Assembly (NCBI RefSeq): GCF_900129905.1
Contig: NZ_FQXG01000003.1
Span: 425,771 to 489,770 of the forward strand
Length of the DNA: 64,000 nucleotides
Source of the DNA: Ferrimonas marina
GTDB taxonomy: Bacteria; Pseudomonadota; Gammaproteobacteria; Enterobacterales; Shewanellaceae
Direction: 5' to 3'
Below are positions 6,432 to 61,356 of the stretch, in pieces. Numbering within the stretch: position 1 is the first letter of the stretch; each line of letters begins with the position of its first letter. The position numbers were made by a program, and so were the translations under genes. Under the pieces are notes generated by a model, which was given only the letters and a program-made list of their open reading frames with translations, was not told the origin of the DNA and searched no databases.

Positions 6432-9400
6432 GTGGCCGGTGGAAAAGTGGTGGGGAAAATGAAGAATGTGTTGGTGGCTACGGCCTGGAAGGTAGCGCCC
6501 GGGTGGTGTCAGAAGTTTGATGACTGGCTTGATGGGCGCAGAACCCAGAAGCTGTTAGCCAGGGCCGAGAAAGCCGGCGGTGTTGATCGTGCTGTGGCTT
6601 TGTTGGTGGACTCTAAGGCAGAAGGTTCTGGCGAAAGTCGCCTCCCTGACTTAGCGCCTGCCCCGAATCCCGAGTCATTCTCCAGGGCGCGACGCCTTTT
6701 ATCGGAGTATCTCGGACGGTCTGACCGGGTACGCCTGATTGCTGTAACCGGTGGTCATAGTGCCGGAAAGAGCAGCTTCCTGTACTCGTTCTTCTCTCTT
6801 GTGAAGGGTTTCAACCACATTGTTATTTCGCTGGGGCAGTCCAAAGACGGTCAGCTAGTGCACTCGGGGAAGGGTGATACTCGAGTGCCGGTCTCGAGCA
6901 AGGAAGTGGTGTGCTCGATCGAAGCCGGAATTCTTCGCCAGATCCTGTACCGGGACCCGGCGCATGGGAAAAGGGCATCAAACCTGCGTGAAGCAGTGGT
7001 TAAAGAGCACTGGGTGCGTAATCTCTTCATGGCAGTGGCGGTTGCGGCAATTTTGTCGGTGGCATCGGCAGTGGCCATCGCGGGCAAAAAAGAGGTGTGG
7101 GGTTGGATCGAGATCGCTCACCATAATTTGGGTAACAGTTGGGCGTTCGCCGTCCTGGCCGGCATCGGTGCATACGCGGTATGGTTTTCGCACCAGCTGG
7201 TGCGTATGGCGAGTCGGATTAGGCTCTCAAAGGTGAATGCGGTCAGTGGCGAGTTTCAGCTGGACCACGGTAACGGCAATGCGCCATCGCCGATGAACGA
7301 ATACCTTGAAGAGATCTTGGCGTACTTTGAGTCCAGCGGGGTGGACGTCGTTGTTTTCGAGGACATGGACCGGTTCAAGCAGCCGGGCATCTTTGAGCGC
7401 CTCAAGGAGATCAACAAAATCATCAACGACAGTGTGAAGGTGAAGCAGACTGTACGGTTTGTTTATGCCTTGCGTGATGATGTGTTTGAGGACGCCACCG
7501 ACCGGACCAAGTTCTTCGATGGGATGGTGCCAGTGGTGCCTGTTGTAGCTGCCGCCAACGTTTATCCTCGCCTGCTGAAAGAGATGGAGCTGGCCGGGTT
7601 CTACGATGGCTCAGCGAAGGCGAAGGAGCACTGGGGTGCGCTGCTGATGGACATCTCCCTTTACGTCCAGGACATGCGGATGTTGAAGGCGATGGTGGTG
7701 GACTTCCACCAGTACAAGGATGCCCTTAATGTGGCTAACGGAGATAGATCTGAGCTTAAGCTGATGGCCTTGATGGCCTGTAAAGTGAAGTACCCCTCGG
7801 AGTTTGCGCGCTGGCAGATTGGGGAGGGTCTCCTGCCTGATGCGGCGATGATGCGTGAAGCCTGGCTTGATGAGCGACAGGTTAAAATCCGGGAAGAGAT
7901 CGATATGATCGAAGATCTGCTTGTCGAGGCAAAGAAAGAGGGTCAGTTGCGAGTAGAACACTACAGCGAGCTGTTGACGGGGCGTTTTGTGGATACGTAT
8001 GGTCCGCTTCATCTACTACGTTTGAACGGGGTCTCATTGTCCGATAGGGCTGGGGCCCTTGAAAAGCTTGCTTCAGAAGGATGGGAGGTTACCGCAAATC
8101 TGAAGTTAAATAACAACGCCAAAAATACATCAGGGATGTCCCTTAAAGAGTTGTTTGAATCGCTCGACCCGGGATTTGAAAAGCGTTATGGGTCATTGCA
8201 TGCCGCATCGTCATCGGGGCGACGTTTTCACGAAAGCCGTCGGGCACAGCTAGAGGCTGAGTTGGAGCGTTTGAGCATCAAGCCTTTGTCATCCTGTCTA
8301 GACTCCGTTTTGCAAAATTGCACTGAGCAAAAGGCCTGGCTTAAGGAGTTGGAGGCTTTCCCGCTGGTGGAGGTATTGCTCAGGCTGGGCTTCATTGACG
8401 AAGATTTCCGTGAGTCACTCTGCGAGTTTGTAGAGGGGGATCTTACGGCGAAGGACTTCGAGTTTATGCGCGACTTGTCAGAGCAGCGTCCACCTAAGAG
8501 TGAGCATGACTCTAAAAACTACGACCGGATTGCGTTGTGGATGCGTGAGCCGCATACCGCCTCACCGGCGGCGTACAATCTCGGGCTAATAAGGCATCTT
8601 GCGGGCGGTGGTGTCCGTGAACAGCAGTTGCTGGACCAGATCGTAGAGAAGCAGATAGAGATGCATGCCGACGGTGTCGCCAGATTGGTTGAATTGCATC
8701 AAGAGCTGGGCATCAACTTCTGCATGCTGGCGGAAAACACCTCTGGCCTTCTGATGAGGGTACTGGATGATGGCAGTGCCGATAGCGAAGGTCGTTTGGC
8801 AGTGGGGCTAACCTTGATTGCGTACTACTCGCGCAACAACAAGCAGTACATGCTAGATGGCCAGGTAATTGAAGCCCTGCAGAGCTTGTTAGATGGCTTT
8901 AAAGGAGCGATGGAAGTCCTTAAGGGCCATTCTGACCGGAGGGCGTTGATCAAGGTACTCGAGGGCATGGGGGTGCGCTTTACCGCTATTGGACGTGCCG
9001 TGGATGATCAGGAGCTGGTTTTGACAGCGATGACCCATCGCTTCCTCCGTCTTAATGAAACGACGCTGTTTGAGGTGATCAAAGCCCTTGAGCCTGAGGG
9101 CGAGAAAGTAGGTACAGTGACCTACAGTGCACTTCCCAACAACACGGCCGCGTTCAGGGAGTGGCTGCACGATGAGGCTAACGCGAATGACCTGGCGCCG
9201 TTGGTGGCGCTGGAAAAAATTACTTCCGTCCCGGAATCGGTCATCCAGGGATTGCTCTGCGCTGAGGGCGATGGCCAGTTGAGCAACACGAACATGAAGG
9301 TGTTGGTCCATGGCGCCAAGTTCAAGATGGCTAAGCTTCCAGAGTCTGGTTTGATGGAAGGGGCCCTTAAGGCACTGCTGAAAGAGAAAAGGGTAGAGGC

Positions 9401-10400
9401 GACCTGGCGTAACGTGTTTGTTCTTCGGCAGGAAGAAGATGCCAACGATACCCTGGAGCAGCCAGATAGATATCTCAAGGCAGAGATCGAAGCGTGGCTC
9501 AATTCAGACTCCACTATCTCGTGCCTGCAAGAACAGGGAGTCCCGGGTGATTCGATGACGAATTGGCTGGTGCCGGAGATTGAAGAGCAGCGGTTACCGC
9601 TAAAGTACGCGCAGGACATTCTGCCGTTGTTGCGTGCCGCTTATGAGGCTGATGAGCTGGAATCTCTGGAGCCGAAGGTGATTAGCAAGGTCCTGGGAAC
9701 TTCTCTGGTAACGCCATCGTGCGACATCGTGGACGTGTTATTGAAGAAGGGAATGTTTAGCGCCTGCGAACGGCTTGTTGCCGACAACCTGGATGTCTTC
9801 TGCCCTGGTGAAGAGTGGGATAGTGAACTGCTGTCGAAAACTGACCTGGTGAAGCGCCTGATCCGCGGTCAGGTAGTTGGTGGTGATCGGTACCGGTCAC
9901 TACTAGCGTCTGTTGAGTTCACGCTTGACGACCTGGGGGGTGATGATCTGGATGAGAGCCTGTACGTGCCCAGCATTGAGAAGGTTGAGATCTCTGAAGG
10001 GCCGCCCATTAAAGCAGGCGATTTCGCTGCTGAGGAAGGCTTCGCGGTCGTGTCTCGGCCACCAGTAGTTCAGCTGGGGGCAGACGCACTAAAGCAGTTG
10101 CTGGGTGACCTAGCTCGACCTGTTGAGGAGCGCTTGGCAATCCTGGTGGGCCAAGTGCAATACCTGGGCGAGGACGTTTGGCCCTTGATTGAAGGCTTTG
10201 GTGGAGCCGAGGAGATGCTCACCATGAGCGATGCAACAGGCAAGTTGAGCGGGGCGGTGATCACCAGCGAGACCACGGCGCTGGCAGCGGCCCTTGTCGA
10301 AGTGGGTTTGATGTCATCGTTCGCAAACAGGGGTGGCAGCATTGTCCTTCATGCCAAAAGGGCTCGTTCAACTGCCTCCGAGGGGTTAACTGAAGGATGA
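6432..10400 (+). CDS. YobI-like membrane P-loop NTPase (1322 aa)
   Basis: Very large protein resembling the YobI-type P-loop NTPases. Walker A is GGHSAGKSS (107-115); two transmembrane helices follow (about 198-218 and 236-254) inserted inside the NTPase; Walker B is VVVFEDMDRF (306-315); then come a sensor-like YALRDDVF and RTKFFD segment typical of this family. Residues ~450-1322 are a long, mostly helical region without recognised domains. It probably sits at the inner membrane with the NTPase in the cytoplasm. The GTG at 6432 has AGGA upstream; an ATG at 6459 is an alternative. Such large NTPases often occur in defence loci, and here it precedes an ART-like gene by 63 bases. Its target is unknown. 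Confidence 0.82.
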   Translation: MAGGKVVGKMKNVLVATAWKVAPGWCQKFDDWLDGRRTQKLLARAEKAGGVDRAVALLVDSKAEGSGESRLPDLAPAPNPESFSRARRLLSEYLGRSDRVRLIAVTGGHSAGKSSFLYSFFSLVKGFNHIVISLGQSKDGQLVHSGKGDTRVPVSSKEVVCSIEAGILRQILYRDPAHGKRASNLREAVVKEHWVRNLFMAVAVAAILSVASAVAIAGKKEVWGWIEIAHHNLGNSWAFAVLAGIGAYAVWFSHQLVRMASRIRLSKVNAVSGEFQLDHGNGNAPSPMNEYLEEILAYFESSGVDVVVFEDMDRFKQPGIFERLKEINKIINDSVKVKQTVRFVYALRDDVFEDATDRTKFFDGMVPVVPVVAAANVYPRLLKEMELAGFYDGSAKAKEHWGALLMDISLYVQDMRMLKAMVVDFHQYKDALNVANGDRSELKLMALMACKVKYPSEFARWQIGEGLLPDAAMMREAWLDERQVKIREEIDMIEDLLVEAKKEGQLRVEHYSELLTGRFVDTYGPLHLLRLNGVSLSDRAGALEKLASEGWEVTANLKLNNNAKNTSGMSLKELFESLDPGFEKRYGSLHAASSSGRRFHESRRAQLEAELERLSIKPLSSCLDSVLQNCTEQKAWLKELEAFPLVEVLLRLGFIDEDFRESLCEFVEGDLTAKDFEFMRDLSEQRPPKSEHDSKNYDRIALWMREPHTASPAAYNLGLIRHLAGGGVREQQLLDQIVEKQIEMHADGVARLVELHQELGINFCMLAENTSGLLMRVLDDGSADSEGRLAVGLTLIAYYSRNNKQYMLDGQVIEALQSLLDGFKGAMEVLKGHSDRRALIKVLEGMGVRFTAIGRAVDDQELVLTAMTHRFLRLNETTLFEVIKALEPEGEKVGTVTYSALPNNTAAFREWLHDEANANDLAPLVALEKITSVPESVIQGLLCAEGDGQLSNTNMKVLVHGAKFKMAKLPESGLMEGALKALLKEKRVEATWRNVFVLRQEEDANDTLEQPDRYLKAEIEAWLNSDSTISCLQEQGVPGDSMTNWLVPEIEEQRLPLKYAQDILPLLRAAYEADELESLEPKVISKVLGTSLVTPSCDIVDVLLKKGMFSACERLVADNLDVFCPGEEWDSELLSKTDLVKRLIRGQVVGGDRYRSLLASVEFTLDDLGGDDLDESLYVPSIEKVEISEGPPIKAGDFAAEEGFAVVSRPPVVQLGADALKQLLGDLARPVEERLAILVGQVQYLGEDVWPLIEGFGGAEEMLTMSDATGKLSGAVITSETTALAAALVEVGLMSSFANRGGSIVLHAKRARSTASEGLTEG

Positions 10401-13501: not shown

Positions 13502-13575
13502 CGCGGCGTAGCTCAATTGGATAGAGCGTCCCCCTCCTAAGGGGAAGGTTGTGGGATCGTGCCCCACCGCTGCGG
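13502..13575 (+). tRNA. tRNA-Arg (anticodon CCT), unusual T-loop
   Basis: A cloverleaf folds with a 7-bp acceptor stem (CGCGGCG/CGCTGCG, one G-U), T8-A9, D-arm GCTC/GAGC with loop AATTGGATA, anticodon arm TCCCC/GGGGA with loop CTCCTAA (anticodon CCT, reads AGG), variable loop AGGTT, T-stem GTGGG/CCCAC and discriminator G. CCA is not encoded. The T-loop is ATCGTGC instead of the usual TTCRANY, so U54 and A58 are missing. It may be decaying or have an altered role. It was assigned by hand folding only. Confidence 0.7.
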
Positions 13576-18157: not shown

Positions 18158-18643
18158 GTGTCTGAGCTCTACTACATTCCGGGGCGCCGTAGGGTGCATG
18201 CTTACCTGAGGAAGGGTTTCGAATTTGCGCTGGAGAAGGCGCGTCATCTTGAAACGTCTATCACCATTGTTCTACCTACGGTGGATCACGCTGAACTGCC
18301 GGTCTGGGGAGAGCTGATAGGACTTGAGGCTGCATCAGAGCTTCGATTCAAGCGTAGCGTTGTCTACCGGGGCGTTAGGCTCGAGCTGATATCGCCGTCT
18401 AAGGTGAATTTTAAACGCTCTCCGGGTCTGGCCACCTCGTTCCTTTTTGTTGTTTGGTGTGGGGACCACAGCCTGAACCGGATTGAAGACCTTCGCAATG
18501 AGCATGTCCAGGACACAAAGGGCACCAGACCTGCCAGAGGGCCTCGACTCAGTCCAATGCTGGTAATCCCGCCTCCGGAGGAGGGGTTGCAGCAGGAGCG
18601 GGGCTGGGTAGAGCGGGTCAGCCCACAGCGTCTTTACTGTTGA
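18158..18643 (+). CDS. Unrecognised gene upstream of cas6e
   Basis: 161-aa protein with alternating strands and helices (SITIVLPTVDH, then LELISPSKVNF, SFLFVVWCGDHSLNRIEDL), suggesting a Rossmann-like alpha/beta fold. The GTG at 18158 has GGGAGGG just ahead; the frame is open to 18068, but those residues look non-coding. It does not resemble Cas5, Cas7, Cse1, Cse2, Cas3, Cas1 or Cas2. It lies 103 bases upstream of cas6e on the same strand with no terminator between, so it may be part of the same unit. The proline-rich C-terminus ends QRLYC. Confidence 0.7.
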   Translation: MSELYYIPGRRRVHAYLRKGFEFALEKARHLETSITIVLPTVDHAELPVWGELIGLEAASELRFKRSVVYRGVRLELISPSKVNFKRSPGLATSFLFVVWCGDHSLNRIEDLRNEHVQDTKGTRPARGPRLSPMLVIPPPEEGLQQERGWVERVSPQRLYC

Positions 18644-18707
18644 TTCACATCACAAAAAATACTGTTGATCAGGGGGATACCCTCGGATATAGTGATTTCG
18701 TTGATTG

Positions 18708-18724
18708 GTGCCAGGGACTGGCAC
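18708..18724 (+). promoter_or_regulatory. Hairpin in the cas6e leader
   Basis: GTGCCAG-GGA-CTGGCAC forms a 7-bp stem with a triloop, 22 bases ahead of the cas6e start codon. It could be an autoregulatory binding site or a processing site; that is inference. Confidence 0.4.
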
Positions 18725-18746
18725 GCAGTGAAATTGGAGTAGATGG

Positions 18747-19331
18747 ATGTACGAGTCGCACGTTATAACGGACATTGATTCCCAGGACCTCTACGCTCTC
18801 CACCAGGAGACATGGCGTAAATTCACCGGCAAAGATCGGCCTCGAAGAGACGCGCCTAAGACCCCATTTTTATACTGGCCAATGACCTCTGAGGGGCAAA
18901 AGGGCACTTGCCTGATGATCCGCTCAGAGCAGCCTTCCTTCGTAAAGGATTTCAGCAAAAAGGGTGTCGAATTTGACCCTGCAGTGGGTGATGAGGTGAG
19001 CTTTGTCATCCGGCTGTGTCTAACATCCCGGGCGCCGGTGACGAACGGTAAAGGCCAGGTCGTTAAGAAGAATCGAGAGACCGATCTTGAGCCTGAGGAA
19101 ATCTCGGACTGGGTGGGTGAGCGGATGCGCGCTCGCGGCATGGAAGTGTTGTCTTTGAAGGTCCGGAGCCTGAACAAGTACAACGTGAAGCGCCATGGCT
19201 ACTCGTTCCAGGGCGGCGAGCTGATGTTGAAGGTAAAAGTCACAGATCCTGTGCTAGCAAAGCAGGCCTATGTAAATGGCATCGGCCGGCAAAAGGCATT
19301 CGGGTTTGGGATGATGGTAATCGTAGGCTAA
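18747..19331 (+). CDS. cas6e: Stand-alone Cas6e (CasE) endoribonuclease
   Basis: 194-aa RAMP protein. The start MYESHVI and the block DLYALHQETW (14-23) match E. coli Cas6e DLYQLHQGLW, so H19 aligns with the catalytic His20. The mid-protein KGVEF...GDEVSFVIRL corresponds to the second strand region, and the C-terminus carries the glycine-rich loop GIGRQKAFGFG (178-188). Length is normal for the family (~200 aa). Cas6e cuts CRISPR hairpins at the 3' base of the stem and stays bound to the product. GGAG lies seven bases before the ATG. No other cas gene is in the window. The hairpin array begins 50 bases downstream with no terminator or clear promoter between, so co-transcription is likely. Confidence 0.85.
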   Translation: MYESHVITDIDSQDLYALHQETWRKFTGKDRPRRDAPKTPFLYWPMTSEGQKGTCLMIRSEQPSFVKDFSKKGVEFDPAVGDEVSFVIRLCLTSRAPVTNGKGQVVKKNRETDLEPEEISDWVGERMRARGMEVLSLKVRSLNKYNVKRHGYSFQGGELMLKVKVTDPVLAKQAYVNGIGRQKAFGFGMMVIVG

Positions 19332-19895
19332 GTCGGGATCCTGGTGCTTCGGGTGATCGTTTGATTTGGTTGCTTGCCTACCCTCGGTTGCGAGGTGACT
19401 AAGATAGTCTTTTTCACCACGGTAACGTGGAAATCAGGTACCCGTTTCCTTACCTGATGTGTCCGTTGGACCGTGTCTACCCCGGTTACGGGGATACCGT
19501 TTTATGGTATTCAGTGGCAAAATCCTCAGTAATGAGGCGCGATAAGTTGTACGTTCCTTTTGGTGATGACCTCGGTATCGAGGGCGGTACATCAACAGAC
19601 TCTGTCGAGATCTGGTGATGCGTAGGAAGACCTCGGATGCGAGGGAACGAGTTGTCTTAGATGCTCGTCTCGAAGGTTTAGCACCACGGCAACGTGGGAA
19701 AAGGTTGTAACATAGTTCCACGGCAACGTGGTGTGGGATCCAATGGCCCACAGTAAAGTAACGGACCACGGTAACGTGGGTAGTTGGTGAAGCTACAGTC
19801 TTGTCCTCGGCAACGAGGCGGCATCTCTGGTGCCTGCTGTTCCTTGAAGTTGTGACTCTTGTGACTCTTGTGACAGTGACCTTACTAGATTGACT

Positions 19896-19922
19896 CCTCG
19901 GTAACGAGGTCCGCTTCGGCGG
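19896..19922 (+). repeat. Double hairpin unit (GNRA + UUCG), copy 1
   Basis: CCTCG-GTAA-CGAGG, one base, then CCGC-TTCG-GCGG. Both tetraloop classes are exceptionally stable only on plus-strand RNA. Repeated at 20082 and 20234. Confidence 0.75.
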
Positions 19923-20081
19923 AACAAAGCTGTGCGTCGCACTGCTCTAAGCTTTGTGAACACTATCGGCCTTTGGCAACGGGGGCCGAACCGGTAAAGG
20001 TTAGGCCTCATTGAAGCCTAATGCTGTATTAGCCTCGGTAACGAGGGCGCTATCGGAAGACCGCTTCTGCTGGTCTCTATT

Positions 20082-20108
20082 CCTCGGCAACGAGGTCCGC
20101 TTCGGCGG
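20082..20108 (+). repeat. Double hairpin unit (GNRA + UUCG), copy 2
   Basis: CCTCG-GCAA-CGAGG, T, then CCGC-TTCG-GCGG. Differs from copy 1 in the loop base only; flanks differ. Confidence 0.75.
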
Positions 20109-20233
20109 CTGCTTGGGTGGTACCTCCATGACCGCCTCGAGTGTTTTGACTTCAATGTGAAAATCCCCCACGGTAACGTGGCTGTGAACGTAAGTTCTTA
20201 TTCGAGCTCACGTGCGCAAAGCGTCTTTATGTA

Positions 20234-20260
20234 CCTCGGTAACGAGGACCGCTTCGGCGG
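20234..20260 (+). repeat. Double hairpin unit (GNRA + UUCG), copy 3
   Basis: CCTCG-GTAA-CGAGG, A, then CCGC-TTCG-GCGG. The linker base differs from the other two copies. Confidence 0.75.
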
Positions 20261-20319
20261 AGATGTGTCCAGGTAACTGGTTCCCATCGATGATTTGCCA
20301 TATTGCCTCGGTAACGAGG

Positions 20320-20351
20320 AAGGGCCAGCAGACATGTGTCTGCTGGCCCTT
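20320..20351. terminator. 15-bp perfect hairpin ending the array
   Basis: AAGGGCCAGCAGACA pairs with its exact complement around a tiny TG centre, directly after the last array hairpin and 24 bases from the end of the converging gene at 20376. No T-run follows on either strand, so it may act as a transcript-end stabiliser rather than a classical terminator. Confidence 0.6.
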
Positions 20352-20375
20352 GGTGTCTCGAATGGCTGAGATGGA

Positions 20376-20762
20376 TTAGTGCACTAAACCGGACATCACA
20401 GATCCATCGTTGATAAAGGCAGCCAGGCGCTGAGTGATCTCTGCAGTCGCAAAAGCCAGGAAGTCACTCGGGGCTTCACCCGCAGATGCTGTGAGCATGC
20501 GTTCGTACTCAGCCAGAACCTGGCGAGCGTATTGCTCGCCGGCATCCAGGTGTTCTGCTGCCGGGATGCCGTTGGTGTAGTGCATCACAGTCTGGATCAC
20601 CGCCGGACGCAGTTGGTCGAGCAAGGTGTTAGTGAGATCTTGCTTGTTACCGCCGTAAGCTAGGCAGGTGGCAAGGCCGTTTACTTTGTTGTGCTCAACG
20701 CGGCTCGCTTTACCATAAAACGCCAAATAGTCTTGCGGGTGTTCCAAAGGATTTAAGAACAT
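20376..20762 (-). CDS. Unrecognised small protein with operator
   Basis: 128-aa helical soluble protein of unknown function. The ATG at 20762 (MFLNPL) has AGGGAG six bases upstream; an in-frame ATG at 20768 is too close to that site, and the longer frame to 21062 runs through the operator. A perfect ATATAC-AAAA-GTATAT palindrome lies 38 bases upstream, placing it in the dispersed regulon. It converges with the hairpin array. Confidence 0.75.
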   Translation of the reverse strand: MFLNPLEHPQDYLAFYGKASRVEHNKVNGLATCLAYGGNKQDLTNTLLDQLRPAVIQTVMHYTNGIPAAEHLDAGEQYARQVLAEYERMLTASAGEAPSDFLAFATAEITQRLAAFINDGSVMSGLVH

Positions 20763-33004: not shown

Positions 33005-33652
33005 TTATGGGCAGGCTTGTTTCTCGCCGACACAGAGCGGCGAGGTAACAGTTACCCACGGGCCCCATACACCGTCTGAGGTTTCAGTCCGTTTATCAGA
33101 CCCGAATTCGCAGGTCCTCTGTGGGTAGGAGCAGTTGGTGGTGACAGTTTGTACCTCGGGTACCCAGTCAACCTGAGTAGCACTTAGGGTGATCGCCCGG
33201 CTGGTGGTGCCGCGGTTACCCGCGCTGTCCGTTGCTGTCACTGTGACGGTACCGGAAATGCTGGCAGAGCCGTTGTAGCTGGTCAGCGACCAGGTACGTT
33301 TGTTATTCGACGGGGCAGAGGGAGATCCAAGTGAACCGCTATAACTCCAGCTATAGGAACAGCTGCCGGAGCAGTTAGAGGTCGACACCGTCAGGGTTGT
33401 TGAAACTGACGCACTGCCACCGGTGGTAGTTGTCGACGGGCCGCAGCTGGGGGAACAGCTGATCGACGGCGACAGCGTCACCGGCGGAGTCACGGTCCCG
33501 TCCTCCCCGTCTAGTGTGGTGGAGTTCAGTGGGGTTGTGGTGATCTGATTGGCATTAGTCACAATGCCGCTGTGATGTTGTTTGGCGTACGCCAGGCCGG
33601 CAACTAAAGCCAGACCCAGGGTCACTGCCGCGAGTGTGATCTTGCTATTCAT
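33005..33652 (-). CDS. Secreted PKD/Ig-like cysteine-rich protein, paralogue 1
   Basis: 215-aa protein with a signal peptide (SKITLAAVTLGLALVAGLAYA, 22 residues with the initiator Met). The mature N-terminus KQHHSGIVTNANQITTTPL is shared in form with two paralogues (33803-34447 and 60649-61356). A serine/threonine-rich Ig/PKD-like domain follows (SCSPSC, CSGSCSYSWSYSGSLG, then VTVTATDSAGN), then a C-terminal C...YPQRTC...KRTE..GVWGPWV...C module. Paired cysteines imply an oxidising compartment. The ATG at 33652 has AGGAAGG upstream. Role unknown; perhaps surface adhesion. Confidence 0.82.
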   Translation of the reverse strand: MNSKITLAAVTLGLALVAGLAYAKQHHSGIVTNANQITTTPLNSTTLDGEDGTVTPPVTLSPSISCSPSCGPSTTTTGGSASVSTTLTVSTSNCSGSCSYSWSYSGSLGSPSAPSNNKRTWSLTSYNGSASISGTVTVTATDSAGNRGTTSRAITLSATQVDWVPEVQTVTTNCSYPQRTCEFGSDKRTETSDGVWGPWVTVTSPLCVGEKQACP

Positions 33653-33802
33653 AACGGCCTTCCTGGTTGCTAGTGGTAAACATGTATATTTATATTCTAT
33701 CGTCGTTTTGTAGCGCATGAGTGAATCTGGTGTTGCTGGGGACTCATTGAAGCACCAAAAAAGCGGCCCAATTACTACTGGCCGCCCATTGAGTTAATTG
33801 CT

Positions 33803-34447
33803 CTAGAAGCACATTCTATTCTCAGCAACGCAACTGGGTGAGCGGGTAGTAACCCAGGAGCCCCATTTTCCAGGCGAAATTTCAGTGCGCTTTTCTATCC
33901 CTGTGATGCAGGTATTCTGCGGATAGGGGCAGTTGAAATAGTTGGTCTGTGTATCTGGAGTCCATGCCTGGTAGATGGCCGTAGCGGACACGCTCTTGCT
34001 CGCAGAGGCGGTCTTGCCGGACGTGTTGTCCTTGACAGTCACGCGTACGGTGCCGCTTTTTTTGGCAGTACCGTTTGAGCTGCTGACCGTCCAAGCCTTC
34101 TGAGTAGAGCTGCCTGAGCCGGTGCCCATGGAGCCGTAGCTCCAAGTGTAGGTACAGGAACCATACGGGCAACTGCCGGAAGCCCGCAAGTCCAAAGAGG
34201 TCCGCGCGGTGCTACCAATCGAAGAGGACGATGGGTTACAGCTGGGCGAGCAACTCAGACTGACCGTTGGGCTGTTCGGATAGCTCGGAGCCGGCGGCGT
34301 GGTGTCCACCTCTTCGCTAACGAGCGGGGTTGTGCTGATGCTGCTCGCGTTCTTTACGACGCCCGGGTGCCACTGTTTACCAACGGCTACCCCGGCCAAC
34401 AGGGCCAGGATGGCGCCTAGGATGATGAAATTGGCCTTGATCTTCAT
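33803..34447 (-). CDS. Secreted PKD/Ig-like cysteine-rich protein, paralogue 2
   Basis: 214-aa paralogue of the neighbouring gene: signal-anchor-like N-terminus (FIILGAILALLAGVAVG), then GKQWHPGVVKNASSISTTPL, an SCSPSC-containing Ig/PKD-like domain with CPYGSCTYTWSYGSMG, a V-R-V-T-V-K-D strand, and the C-terminal CPYPQNTC...KRTEISPGKWGSWV...C module. It lies upstream of paralogue 1 on the same strand with a 150-base gap. Operator variant at 34483-34498. The tandem pair probably arose by duplication. Confidence 0.82.
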   Translation of the reverse strand: MKIKANFIILGAILALLAGVAVGKQWHPGVVKNASSISTTPLVSEEVDTTPPAPSYPNSPTVSLSCSPSCNPSSSSIGSTARTSLDLRASGSCPYGSCTYTWSYGSMGTGSGSSTQKAWTVSSSNGTAKKSGTVRVTVKDNTSGKTASASKSVSATAIYQAWTPDTQTNYFNCPYPQNTCITGIEKRTEISPGKWGSWVTTRSPSCVAENRMCF

Positions 34448-60648: not shown

Positions 60649-61356
60649 TCAGCGGTCGTCCTTATCTAGGTCGCAGTCGCCTTGCCCGACGCAGCCACCA
60701 CCGCCACCACCGAAACATTGCAAAGCGTTCGCTGCACAAACCGGTGCCTGTACTTGGGTCCAGCTGCCCCAGACACCGGGGGAAGTTTCAGACCGGATCT
60801 GGCTACCTGCGGTACAGGTGTAACTCAGAGTGCCAGAGCTGCAGTTAAGTACGGCGGTCTGGCTTTGGAGTTGGGTAAACGTGGCGACGGCATCGACGTA
60901 TACTGATCGGGTTGTGGAGAGTTTTGATGTGCTGTCGGTGACCCTGACCGTCACAGTGCCCTGGCGTTTACTTTCGCCTGAAGTAGTCCGGGAAATCCCC
61001 CAGGTACGCGAATTCCCACTGATGCTGGCAGTGCCTGGGTTGGTGCTGCCGTAGGTCCAGCTGTATGAGCAACTGCCATGAGGGCACGAGGCACTTGCTG
61101 AGACCGTAACAGAGGCATAGGCCGAGCCGGAATAGCTACTCACGTGATGCTTACAGCTGGTGCGGTTGCAGGACAGTGACAAGCTGGGGGCTGTATAGCT
61201 GGGTGTGGTTGAGCCGCTGCTGCCGGTAACCAGTGGGGTGGAGCTAATATCGCTAGCAGTTGTAACAATGCCACTATGCCATTGCTTGGCCATAGCAACA
61301 CCGGTGCTGGTTGCGGCAAGTAAGCCCAAAAGAATTAACAGCTGTCGTAACTTCAT
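60649..61356 (-). CDS. Secreted PKD/Ig-like cysteine-rich protein, paralogue 3
   Basis: 235-aa member of the family at 33005 and 33803: signal peptide (LLILLGLLAATSTGVAMA), mature start KQWHSGIVTTASDISSTPL, Ig/PKD-like domain with CNRTSC, CPHGSCSYSWTYGS and TVTVRVTDS, then TYTC...RSETSPGVWGSW...C. It ends in a polyglycine and acidic tail (FGGGGGGCVGQGDCDLDKD) with two extra cysteines absent from the others. No clear ribosome site was seen. Located 26 kb away from the other two, so it was moved or duplicated separately. Confidence 0.8.
   Translation of the reverse strand: MKLRQLLILLGLLAATSTGVAMAKQWHSGIVTTASDISSTPLVTGSSGSTTPSYTAPSLSLSCNRTSCKHHVSSYSGSAYASVTVSASASCPHGSCSYSWTYGSTNPGTASISGNSRTWGISRTTSGESKRQGTVTVRVTDSTSKLSTTRSVYVDAVATFTQLQSQTAVLNCSSGTLSYTCTAGSQIRSETSPGVWGSWTQVQAPVCAANALQCFGGGGGGCVGQGDCDLDKDDR

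Follow-up and report, generated by a model that had tools for sequence, protein, structure and literature searches.

What could a Cas6e endoribonuclease be doing when the RNA encoded beside it is not an array of clustered regularly interspaced short palindromic repeats (CRISPR)? The question is raised by a locus of the bacterium Ferrimonas marina, whose 4.98-Mb draft genome in 18 contigs carries, within the 64-kb stretch analysed here (the window, positions 425771-489770 of the 576,248-base contig NZ_FQXG01000003.1, or C10), three parts laid out on one strand: a cas6e gene, an array of small hairpins 50 nucleotides (nt) behind it, and an inverted repeat that closes the array (Table 1). A first-pass annotation, made from the letters of the window, had seen in this pair a CRISPR-processing enzyme repurposed to work with a hairpin RNA, either as its substrate or as a scaffold or decoy. 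We consider it an evenly balanced proposition that the locus is a CRISPR-independent Cas6 ribonucleoprotein module, composed of Cas6e and its own hairpin RNA. Our best reading of its history is that this Cas6 would descend from an ordinary type IV-A or I-E processing enzyme and would now have its own hairpin RNA as sole partner, without any guide function.

The Cas6e protein and the hairpins behind its gene

On sequence grounds, the window protein is clearly assignable to the Cas6e family, with the conserved histidine and the glycine-rich loop retained. It passes the cut-offs of Pfam (PF08798, 60.9 bits for a cut-off of 25) and of NCBIfam (TIGR01907 casE_Cse3, 55.9 bits for a cut-off of 45.2), and the PADLOC models Cas6, Cas6e and typeIV_Cas6 all match it, in agreement with the full-length Cas6e-type protein first described. 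His19, which we take to be the catalytic histidine of Cas6e, lies within the segment DLYALHQ, aligned to DLYQLHQ (the HQ motif) of Escherichia coli CasE by a phmmer alignment of low significance (E 0.28). In an eight-sequence alignment of related Cas6 proteins the invariant residues are H19, P63, G178 and G186, and the C-terminal loop is kept as GIGRQKAFGFG.

The apparently non-coding stretch of about 0.94 kb that had been noticed fifty bases past the gene measures 938 bp, and its units of an exact 5-bp stem plus tetraloop number 16. The approximate count of 19 small hairpins was close, the total being 20 once the 16 exact units are joined by three hairpins of the form CCGC-UUCG-GCGG and a G-U-rich one with a GCAA loop; the range of 20-77 bases given for the spacers was wrong, since the actual lengths of 21, 49, 30, 32, 47, 39, 20, 34, 25, 77, 123, 35, 72, 52 and 58 nt run from 20 to 123. 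Read on the cas6e strand, the first loop base is G in 16 of 16 units, and 12 of the loops are of the GNRA type. The array stands out from its surroundings: perfect 5+4+5 hairpins of any sequence amount to 17 in the 938 bp versus at most 4 in any other tile of that size (two array-overlapping tiles excluded), and of 17 occurrences of the pattern CCNCGNNNNCGNGG in the window, 15 fall in the array, for an expectation of 1.57 and a maximum of 7 in 100 shuffled sequences. The one remaining unit (unit 4), with an A-U inner pair, falls outside that pattern.

The 16 units collapse to 9 distinct sequences, and every stem is perfect. For these 9 sequences, paired cells reach 100% versus a shuffled mean of 89.8% and the covariation score is 0.311 versus 0.092, values equalled in each case by 1 of 500 shuffles, which overstate independence because the rows are copies within one array. 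Positions flanking the 14-nt unit have an information content that is mostly near zero and nowhere exceeds 0.27 bits. Compensatory changes within the stems together with unconserved flanks point to selection on the hairpin itself. Moreover, the plus strand of 19332-20375 folds with a z-score of -6.5, the cas6e gene itself giving 0.07 (40 shuffles each). The joined spacers with the closing hairpin give -2.85, and when the 50-nt gap and the 15 spacers are folded one by one, 13 of these 16 linkers have negative z-scores, the lowest being -2.63, so the linkers also hold weak hairpins.

Table 1. Features of the cas6e and hairpin-array locus (window coordinates)
Feature	Position	Strand	Basis or remark
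Sigma-70-like promoter match TTGATC-17-TATAGT	18665..18693	+	Consensus scan only; just 5' of cas6e
cas6e, stand-alone Cas6e-family endoribonuclease gene, 194 amino acids, His19, GIGRQKAFGFG loop	18747..19331	+	Pfam, NCBIfam, PADLOC, alignment
Gap of 50 nt, cas6e stop to unit 1	19332..19381	+	Sequence
Hairpin array, 16 exact units CCNC(G/A)-GNNN-(C/T)GNGG, no recognised gene	19382..20319 (938 bp)	+	Pattern and fold
Unit 1 CCTCG-GTTG-CGAGG	19382..19395	+	
Unit 2 CCACG-GTAA-CGTGG	19417..19430	+	
Unit 3 CCCCG-GTTA-CGGGG	19480..19493	+	Of all units closest to an ordinary I-E repeat stem
Unit 4 CCTCA-GTAA-TGAGG	19524..19537	+	Compensated inner pair
Unit 5 CCTCG-GTAT-CGAGG	19570..19583	+	
Unit 6 CCTCG-GATG-CGAGG	19631..19644	+	
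Unit 7 CCACG-GCAA-CGTGG	19684..19697	+	
Unit 8 CCACG-GCAA-CGTGG	19718..19731	+	
Unit 9 CCACG-GTAA-CGTGG	19766..19779	+	
Unit 10 CCTCG-GCAA-CGAGG	19805..19818	+	
Unit 11 CCTCG-GTAA-CGAGG	19896..19909	+	UUCG hairpin follows directly
UUCG hairpin TCCGC-TTCG-GCGGA	19910..19923	+	Related copies 20097-20108 and 20249-20260, each after a GNRA unit
Extra GCAA hairpin CGGCCTTTG-GCAA-CGGGGGCCG, three G-U pairs	19967..19988	+	Outer five pairs: pairing probability 0.94
Unit 12 CCTCG-GTAA-CGAGG	20033..20046	+	
Unit 13 CCTCG-GCAA-CGAGG	20082..20095	+	
Unit 14 CCACG-GTAA-CGTGG	20168..20181	+	
Unit 15 CCTCG-GTAA-CGAGG	20234..20247	+	
Unit 16 CCTCG-GTAA-CGAGG	20306..20319	+	Abuts closing inverted repeat
Perfect 15-bp inverted repeat, 2-nt centre	20320..20351	+	Sequence; array end, possible RNA 3' end

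CRISPR arrays, other cas genes and known RNAs

That the hairpin set is not a standard CRISPR array, as first proposed, is borne out by every feature compared. No near-identical repeats of 21-40 nt are found in it, its conserved part being the 14 nt of the unit with flanks at background level, and no regular repeat was detected anywhere in the window. Spacer length is far from near-constant, and no constant 5' handle was found: the 3' flanks match ATRAACCG at background level, with no conserved column after the unit. Unit 3 and its flanks resemble by eye a remnant I-E repeat, a candidate that was rejected when the flanks scored at background. A CRISPR array would retain the handle, because the effector needs it, whereas conservation of the hairpin alone is expected from a partner for which nothing but the hairpin counts; preservation of the hairpin while the guide-related repeat parts are absent supports the reading of a Cas6 that now works with its own hairpin RNA. 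No known RNA family was recognised in the array at the gathering level of Rfam, the sole match up to an E-value of 1 being CRISPR-DR16 (18.4 versus 35 bits, E 0.64). The unit is not a dispersed element either, since the whole genome holds 18 matches to CCWCGGNNACGWGG, 11 in the array and 7 elsewhere versus 5 for a backward control, and no second copy of the array was found in it.

The absence of any other cas gene, another early claim, is true of the neighbourhood and not of the genome. With 27 Cas queries, 21 of them for proteins other than Cas6, no non-Cas6 gene was matched in the window, where the Cas6 queries found only cas6e itself, and none of the queries matched in the roughly 15 kb on each side (L017 and L018). 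The same contig does, however, carry a type IV-A system some 150 kb upstream (L016:9231-15522), with csf1 and a second cas6 of 188 amino acids recognised by PADLOC; its remaining genes are presumably dinG, csf3 and csf2, judging from gene order. It is accompanied by a CRISPR array of 15 repeats GTCAGGCCCGCCCAGGCGGGGGTGTTTC, and the genome thus has two separate Cas6 proteins, which match each other by BLAST over some 40 residues only (45%) and are 24% identical in a multiple alignment (A2). The hairpin of this repeat, CCCGC-CCAG-GCGGG, differs from the array unit.

With type I-E processing, the locus shares the enzyme family, the conserved histidine and a similar hairpin size, and it differs in that neither cas3, cse1, cse2, cas7, cas5 nor cas1 was detected nearby and in that its array has no 28-29-nt repeat, 61-nt period or 5' handle. 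The Cas6e of type I-E systems is described as cutting at the hairpin and then remaining on the 3' hairpin (PMC5965380).

Related Cas6 proteins and the search for a second locus

Genomes were searched in overlapping sets, which are samples and whose counts include the source genome. A scan with the window protein alone gave matches in 4 of 194 genomes of relatives and 3 of 329 of the phylum; PF08798 was present in 42 of 394 genomes of the order, and an alignment (A3) matched in 10 of 152 genomes of the family and 34 of 369 of the class. Leaving aside the genome's own IV-A system, 83 Cas6 loci were examined (L019, L020, L022-L026, L028-L057, L060-L068, L089-L094 and L095-L125, L021 being the same place as L057 and L118-L120 being widened as L126-L128), a total that excludes matches in G219, G828, G644, G712 and G537 and the second match of G839 and may contain duplicates between contigs and genomes. 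Another cas or csf query matches near Cas6 in 82 of them. The weak cases among these are L061, with short csf2 and csf3 matches and neighbours that look csf-like by eye, and L063, where a 123-amino-acid Cas6 fragment lies next to a 17-residue Cas1 stub. The single locus with no cas match (L126:8798-10887, in G553) is a C-terminal Cas6 fragment about 0.3 kb from a contig end, with one side unreadable; its neighbours, judged by eye, encode a HipA-like protein and a small helix-turn-helix protein. The search for Cas6e homologues outside cas loci that the first-pass annotation had called for therefore yielded no second intact stand-alone Cas6e among the 83 loci. For the outcome that it named as refuting, complete cas operons in close relatives, there is no clean comparison: the nearest relatives do adjoin cas genes, but they are at most 31% identical over the full length and are not orthologues. 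In this line, a scan of the genome_contigs set gave 5 relatives of 24-27% identity, all with cas1, cas5, cas7 and cse1, and three of these loci (L022-L024) read as I-E operons.

Mobile elements were searched for both parts. In the viral_contigs set, the single-protein scan gave no pattern match, an alignment scan with one short pattern gave 21 stretches with zero relatives, and two exact double-hairpin patterns gave 0 matches. In phages, Cas6e gave no tblastn match at an E-value of 0.01 and the array no blastn match at 0.1. In plasmids, Cas6e gave 7 weak tblastn matches, each covering 59% of the protein, all annotated as type I-E Cas6 on plasmids predicted to be conjugative; window positions 18600-20400 gave no blastn match at 1e-5, and the array, at E-values up to 1, gave two short ones, of 39 and 31 query bases, which we regard as due to chance. 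A looser double-hairpin pattern found nothing but the original locus in the 152 family genomes and, in the 369 class genomes, the original and one case in G630 with an imperfect second stem. The inspection for the unit elsewhere that had been suggested has thus revealed no second array in the samples searched, with patterns that would miss diverged arrays.

Among the nine loci first compared, the nearest tblastn match is the IV-A Cas6 of G263 (L060), with 27% identity over 185 residues (E 4.5e-14), and in a tree of 49 Cas6 proteins the window protein joins this same protein (95/43) and then that of G090 (95/82). An origin from type IV-A may be suggested as a lead only, because the tree program warns of long branches meeting there. 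The G263 Cas6 has the same GIGRQKAFGFG loop, and its repeat TTCCCCGCAAGGGGGTTAGCGG has a hairpin of the CCCC-GCAA-GGGG type whose loop varies between copies, as it does in the window; in contrast, that system has csf1-cas6-dinG-csf3-csf2 and a repeat whose 3' part (GGTTAGCGG) is mostly preserved, none of which is found at the window locus. More generally, repeats near related Cas6 proteins form a stem of 5-7 bp with a 4-nt loop in 16 of 18 cases (the other two being 4+5 and 6+6), most of them with a CC...GG base, and unit 3 (CCCCG-GUUA-CGGGG) is such a repeat stem, shorter by one or two pairs. Since the related proteins meet hairpins of the size of the unit, the two parts of the locus can be argued to belong together.

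Some of these loci are peculiar in themselves. The IV-A array of G263 (L060:13097-13597) is irregularly spaced (38, 100, 57, 57, 113, 57 and 57) with variable hairpin loops, and next to this system (L060:14073-17615) is encoded a 1180-amino-acid protein with an SSGKDSS motif, which looks by eye like a reductase of phosphoadenosine phosphosulfate (PAPS). In G212 (L061:6908-10447), a csf-like operon contains both cas6e and a gene labelled by eye as CysH/PAPS-reductase-like. The combination is unusual, because type IV-B systems carry cysH and are not known to carry cas6.

From its gene content (SSB, PhoH-PIN, the type IV-A system and many unknown genes), contig C10 may be guessed to be a megaplasmid. 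The protein encoded just upstream of cas6e (18161-18643, 160 amino acids) has only a sub-cut-off NCBIfam match (E 0.074), no Pfam or PADLOC match, no tblastn match in plasmids and no second copy in the genome. Farther away, the window encodes a 1322-amino-acid YobI-like P-loop nucleoside triphosphatase (NTPase; 6432-10400, Pfam 315.8 bits) and three secreted-looking paralogues of unknown family (33005-33718, 33803-34447 and 60649-61356) that share, close to their N-termini, the segment KQ(W/H)H(S/P)G(I/V)V. ARAGORN and Rfam agree on a tRNA-Arg at 13502-13575, and a 100-nt tRNA-Tyr at 2290-2389 is reported by ARAGORN and not by Rfam at the gathering score. To the left of the window (L018:5383-8536), three adjacent unknown genes with similar N-termini (AI..IA..V.SR type) are possible tandem paralogues.

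A proposed role and the explanations that compete with it

A promoter-like site upstream, a shared strand and the inverted repeat at the end lead us to infer that cas6e and the hairpin stretch would be transcribed as one unit. Cas6e would recognise the 14-nt stem-loop CCNCG-GNRA-CGNGG (for example CCUCGGUAACGAGG) in its own 3' RNA, stay bound to it and probably cut every stem at its 3' base, as Cas6e enzymes do in the precursor of CRISPR RNAs. Such cutting would yield some 15 internal RNAs of 34-137 nt, the unit-to-unit distances in the array, with hairpin 3' ends capped by Cas6e and variable 5' ends, which could not be ordinary guides because they have no constant 5' handle. The likeliest output, in our analysis, would be a pool of Cas6e-capped small RNAs or else a self-limiting sponge for Cas6e. 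A more specific version, in which a Cas6 freed from CRISPR and a non-CRISPR hairpin-array RNA make up a two-part, effector-free system of a mobile element that produces Cas6-capped small RNAs, is possible, at rather less than an even chance.

What can be said for the repurposing first proposed is that a separate Cas6e lies on the same strand as, and 50 nt from, a set of non-CRISPR hairpins with repeat-sized stems, with no adjoining effector or adaptation genes detected; its decoy version found no match among 18 repeats. The sequence evidence leads us to infer that cas6e and the array belong together, and binding is predicted. Several observations weigh against this reading. The adjacency could be a coincidence, and the locus is single, with no detected orthologue and hence no covariation between species. 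Promoter matches are at chance level (2 sites in the region versus 2.5 in shuffles), and the closing inverted repeat has no T-run and was not reported by the terminator scan at 20320-20351. Within the stems, 2 of 5 pairs change on both sides, a number attained by 26 of 500 shuffles, and 192 of 500 attain the observed count of pair types, so that these two of the five measures computed say little. The minus strand of 19332-20375 also folds well (z-score of -4.8), and the joined spacers stripped of the closing hairpin give -2.15 on the plus and -2.45 on the minus strand (60 shuffles), both as palindromic DNA would do. A full-length fold speaks against a simple picture of beads on a string, with pairing probabilities of at least 0.6 in only 7 of the 16 units and of just 0.05 for the UUCG copy at 20097. 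Finally, antisense targets of the spacers were sought in the source genome and not found: beyond the array itself, no match was longer than 33 bases, the best having an E-value of 0.37.

Four other explanations, which overlap in part with the module that we prefer, so that their probabilities need not add up to one, have to be weighed. The one that survives best, unlikely as we judge it, is an RNA decoy: repeat-like hairpins, perhaps together with a spare Cas6, would trap or poison the Cas6 or Cas7 of a host or rival CRISPR system. A precedent exists in the RNA anti-CRISPRs (Racrs), described as repeat mimics, one of them bound and cut by Cas6f, with candidates on viruses and plasmids (PMC10651486), and the stems of the units, most of all CCCCG-GUUA-CGGGG at 19480, are like shortened I-E stems. 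The locus shares with these RNAs a CRISPR-like hairpin RNA that is encoded away from any CRISPR locus, on what is probably a mobile element. However, no match was seen between the units and any of the 18 repeats extracted, the genome's own IV-A repeat among them; the units have no repeat-like handle and come in sixteen diverged copies, a large number, next to a Cas6 of their own; the solitary repeat units presented in the same report mimic repeats and are described as unassociated with cas genes (PMC10651486).

Rather improbable is an autoregulatory 3' untranslated region, in which Cas6e would cut or bind its own message and the array would set the level of free Cas6e, with no trans-acting product. 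The 50-nt distance, the common strand and a consensus scan that reported no promoter-like site between cas6e and the array all fit it, but sixteen sites far exceed the need and the purpose of the enzyme would be left unexplained. We find it distinctly improbable that the array works as DNA, its palindromes being bound by a protein that acts in partition, replication or regulation, with cas6e a neighbour by chance. The CCWCG....CGWGG palindromes, the plasmid-like contig with its SSB gene and the fact that both strands fold better than shuffles would suit such sites, whereas a symmetric site would need neither the G-first loops found in 16 of 16 units nor the GNRA loops found in 12; moreover, the G-U pairs of the hairpin at 19967-19988 form only in the plus-strand RNA and would be mismatched on the other strand, the spacing is irregular, and a Pfam search of 15 other open reading frames of the window, a minority of them, showed no partition protein. 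Highly improbable, lastly, is a functionless leftover of a CRISPR-Cas locus that has been lost or has degenerated: the partners have likely been lost in the past, because 82 of the 83 other Cas6 loci adjoin cas or csf genes, and Cas6 fragments do occur elsewhere (L063, L126), but the frame is intact with its conserved residues, perfect stems in 16 of 16 units with compensatory changes and random flanks are not what neutral decay leaves, and both the period and the repeat flanks are absent.

The preferred module of Cas6e and its hairpin RNA would also stand apart from known reuse of CRISPR parts. Mini-arrays, single repeat units, CRISPR-associated transposons and partial cas sets are covered in the available portions of two reviews (PMC11656645, PMC8730458), which include an exapted cas5-cas6-cas7-cas8 set of Streptomyces with an NTPase of the STAND (signal transduction ATPases with numerous domains) class (PMC8730458); a lone Cas6 with a non-CRISPR hairpin array goes unmentioned in those portions. 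Such exaptations resemble the window locus in reusing CRISPR parts that lack both adaptation genes and an array, and differ from it in that the latter retains cas6 only, plus a special hairpin stretch. A literature search over titles and abstract openings, which took in neither most subscription papers nor any preprint, gave no stand-alone Cas6 with a non-CRISPR hairpin array among the matches listed.

If true, the proposal would mean that a Cas6 can work apart from CRISPR, its cognate RNA being no repeat and no guide, and it would show how mobile elements recruit the RNA-processing parts of CRISPR systems. The set required for a direct test is small, comprising one small protein and one 14-nt hairpin. 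A single RNA that gives rise to many Cas6e-capped small RNAs would be, in that case, a new route to bacterial small RNAs.

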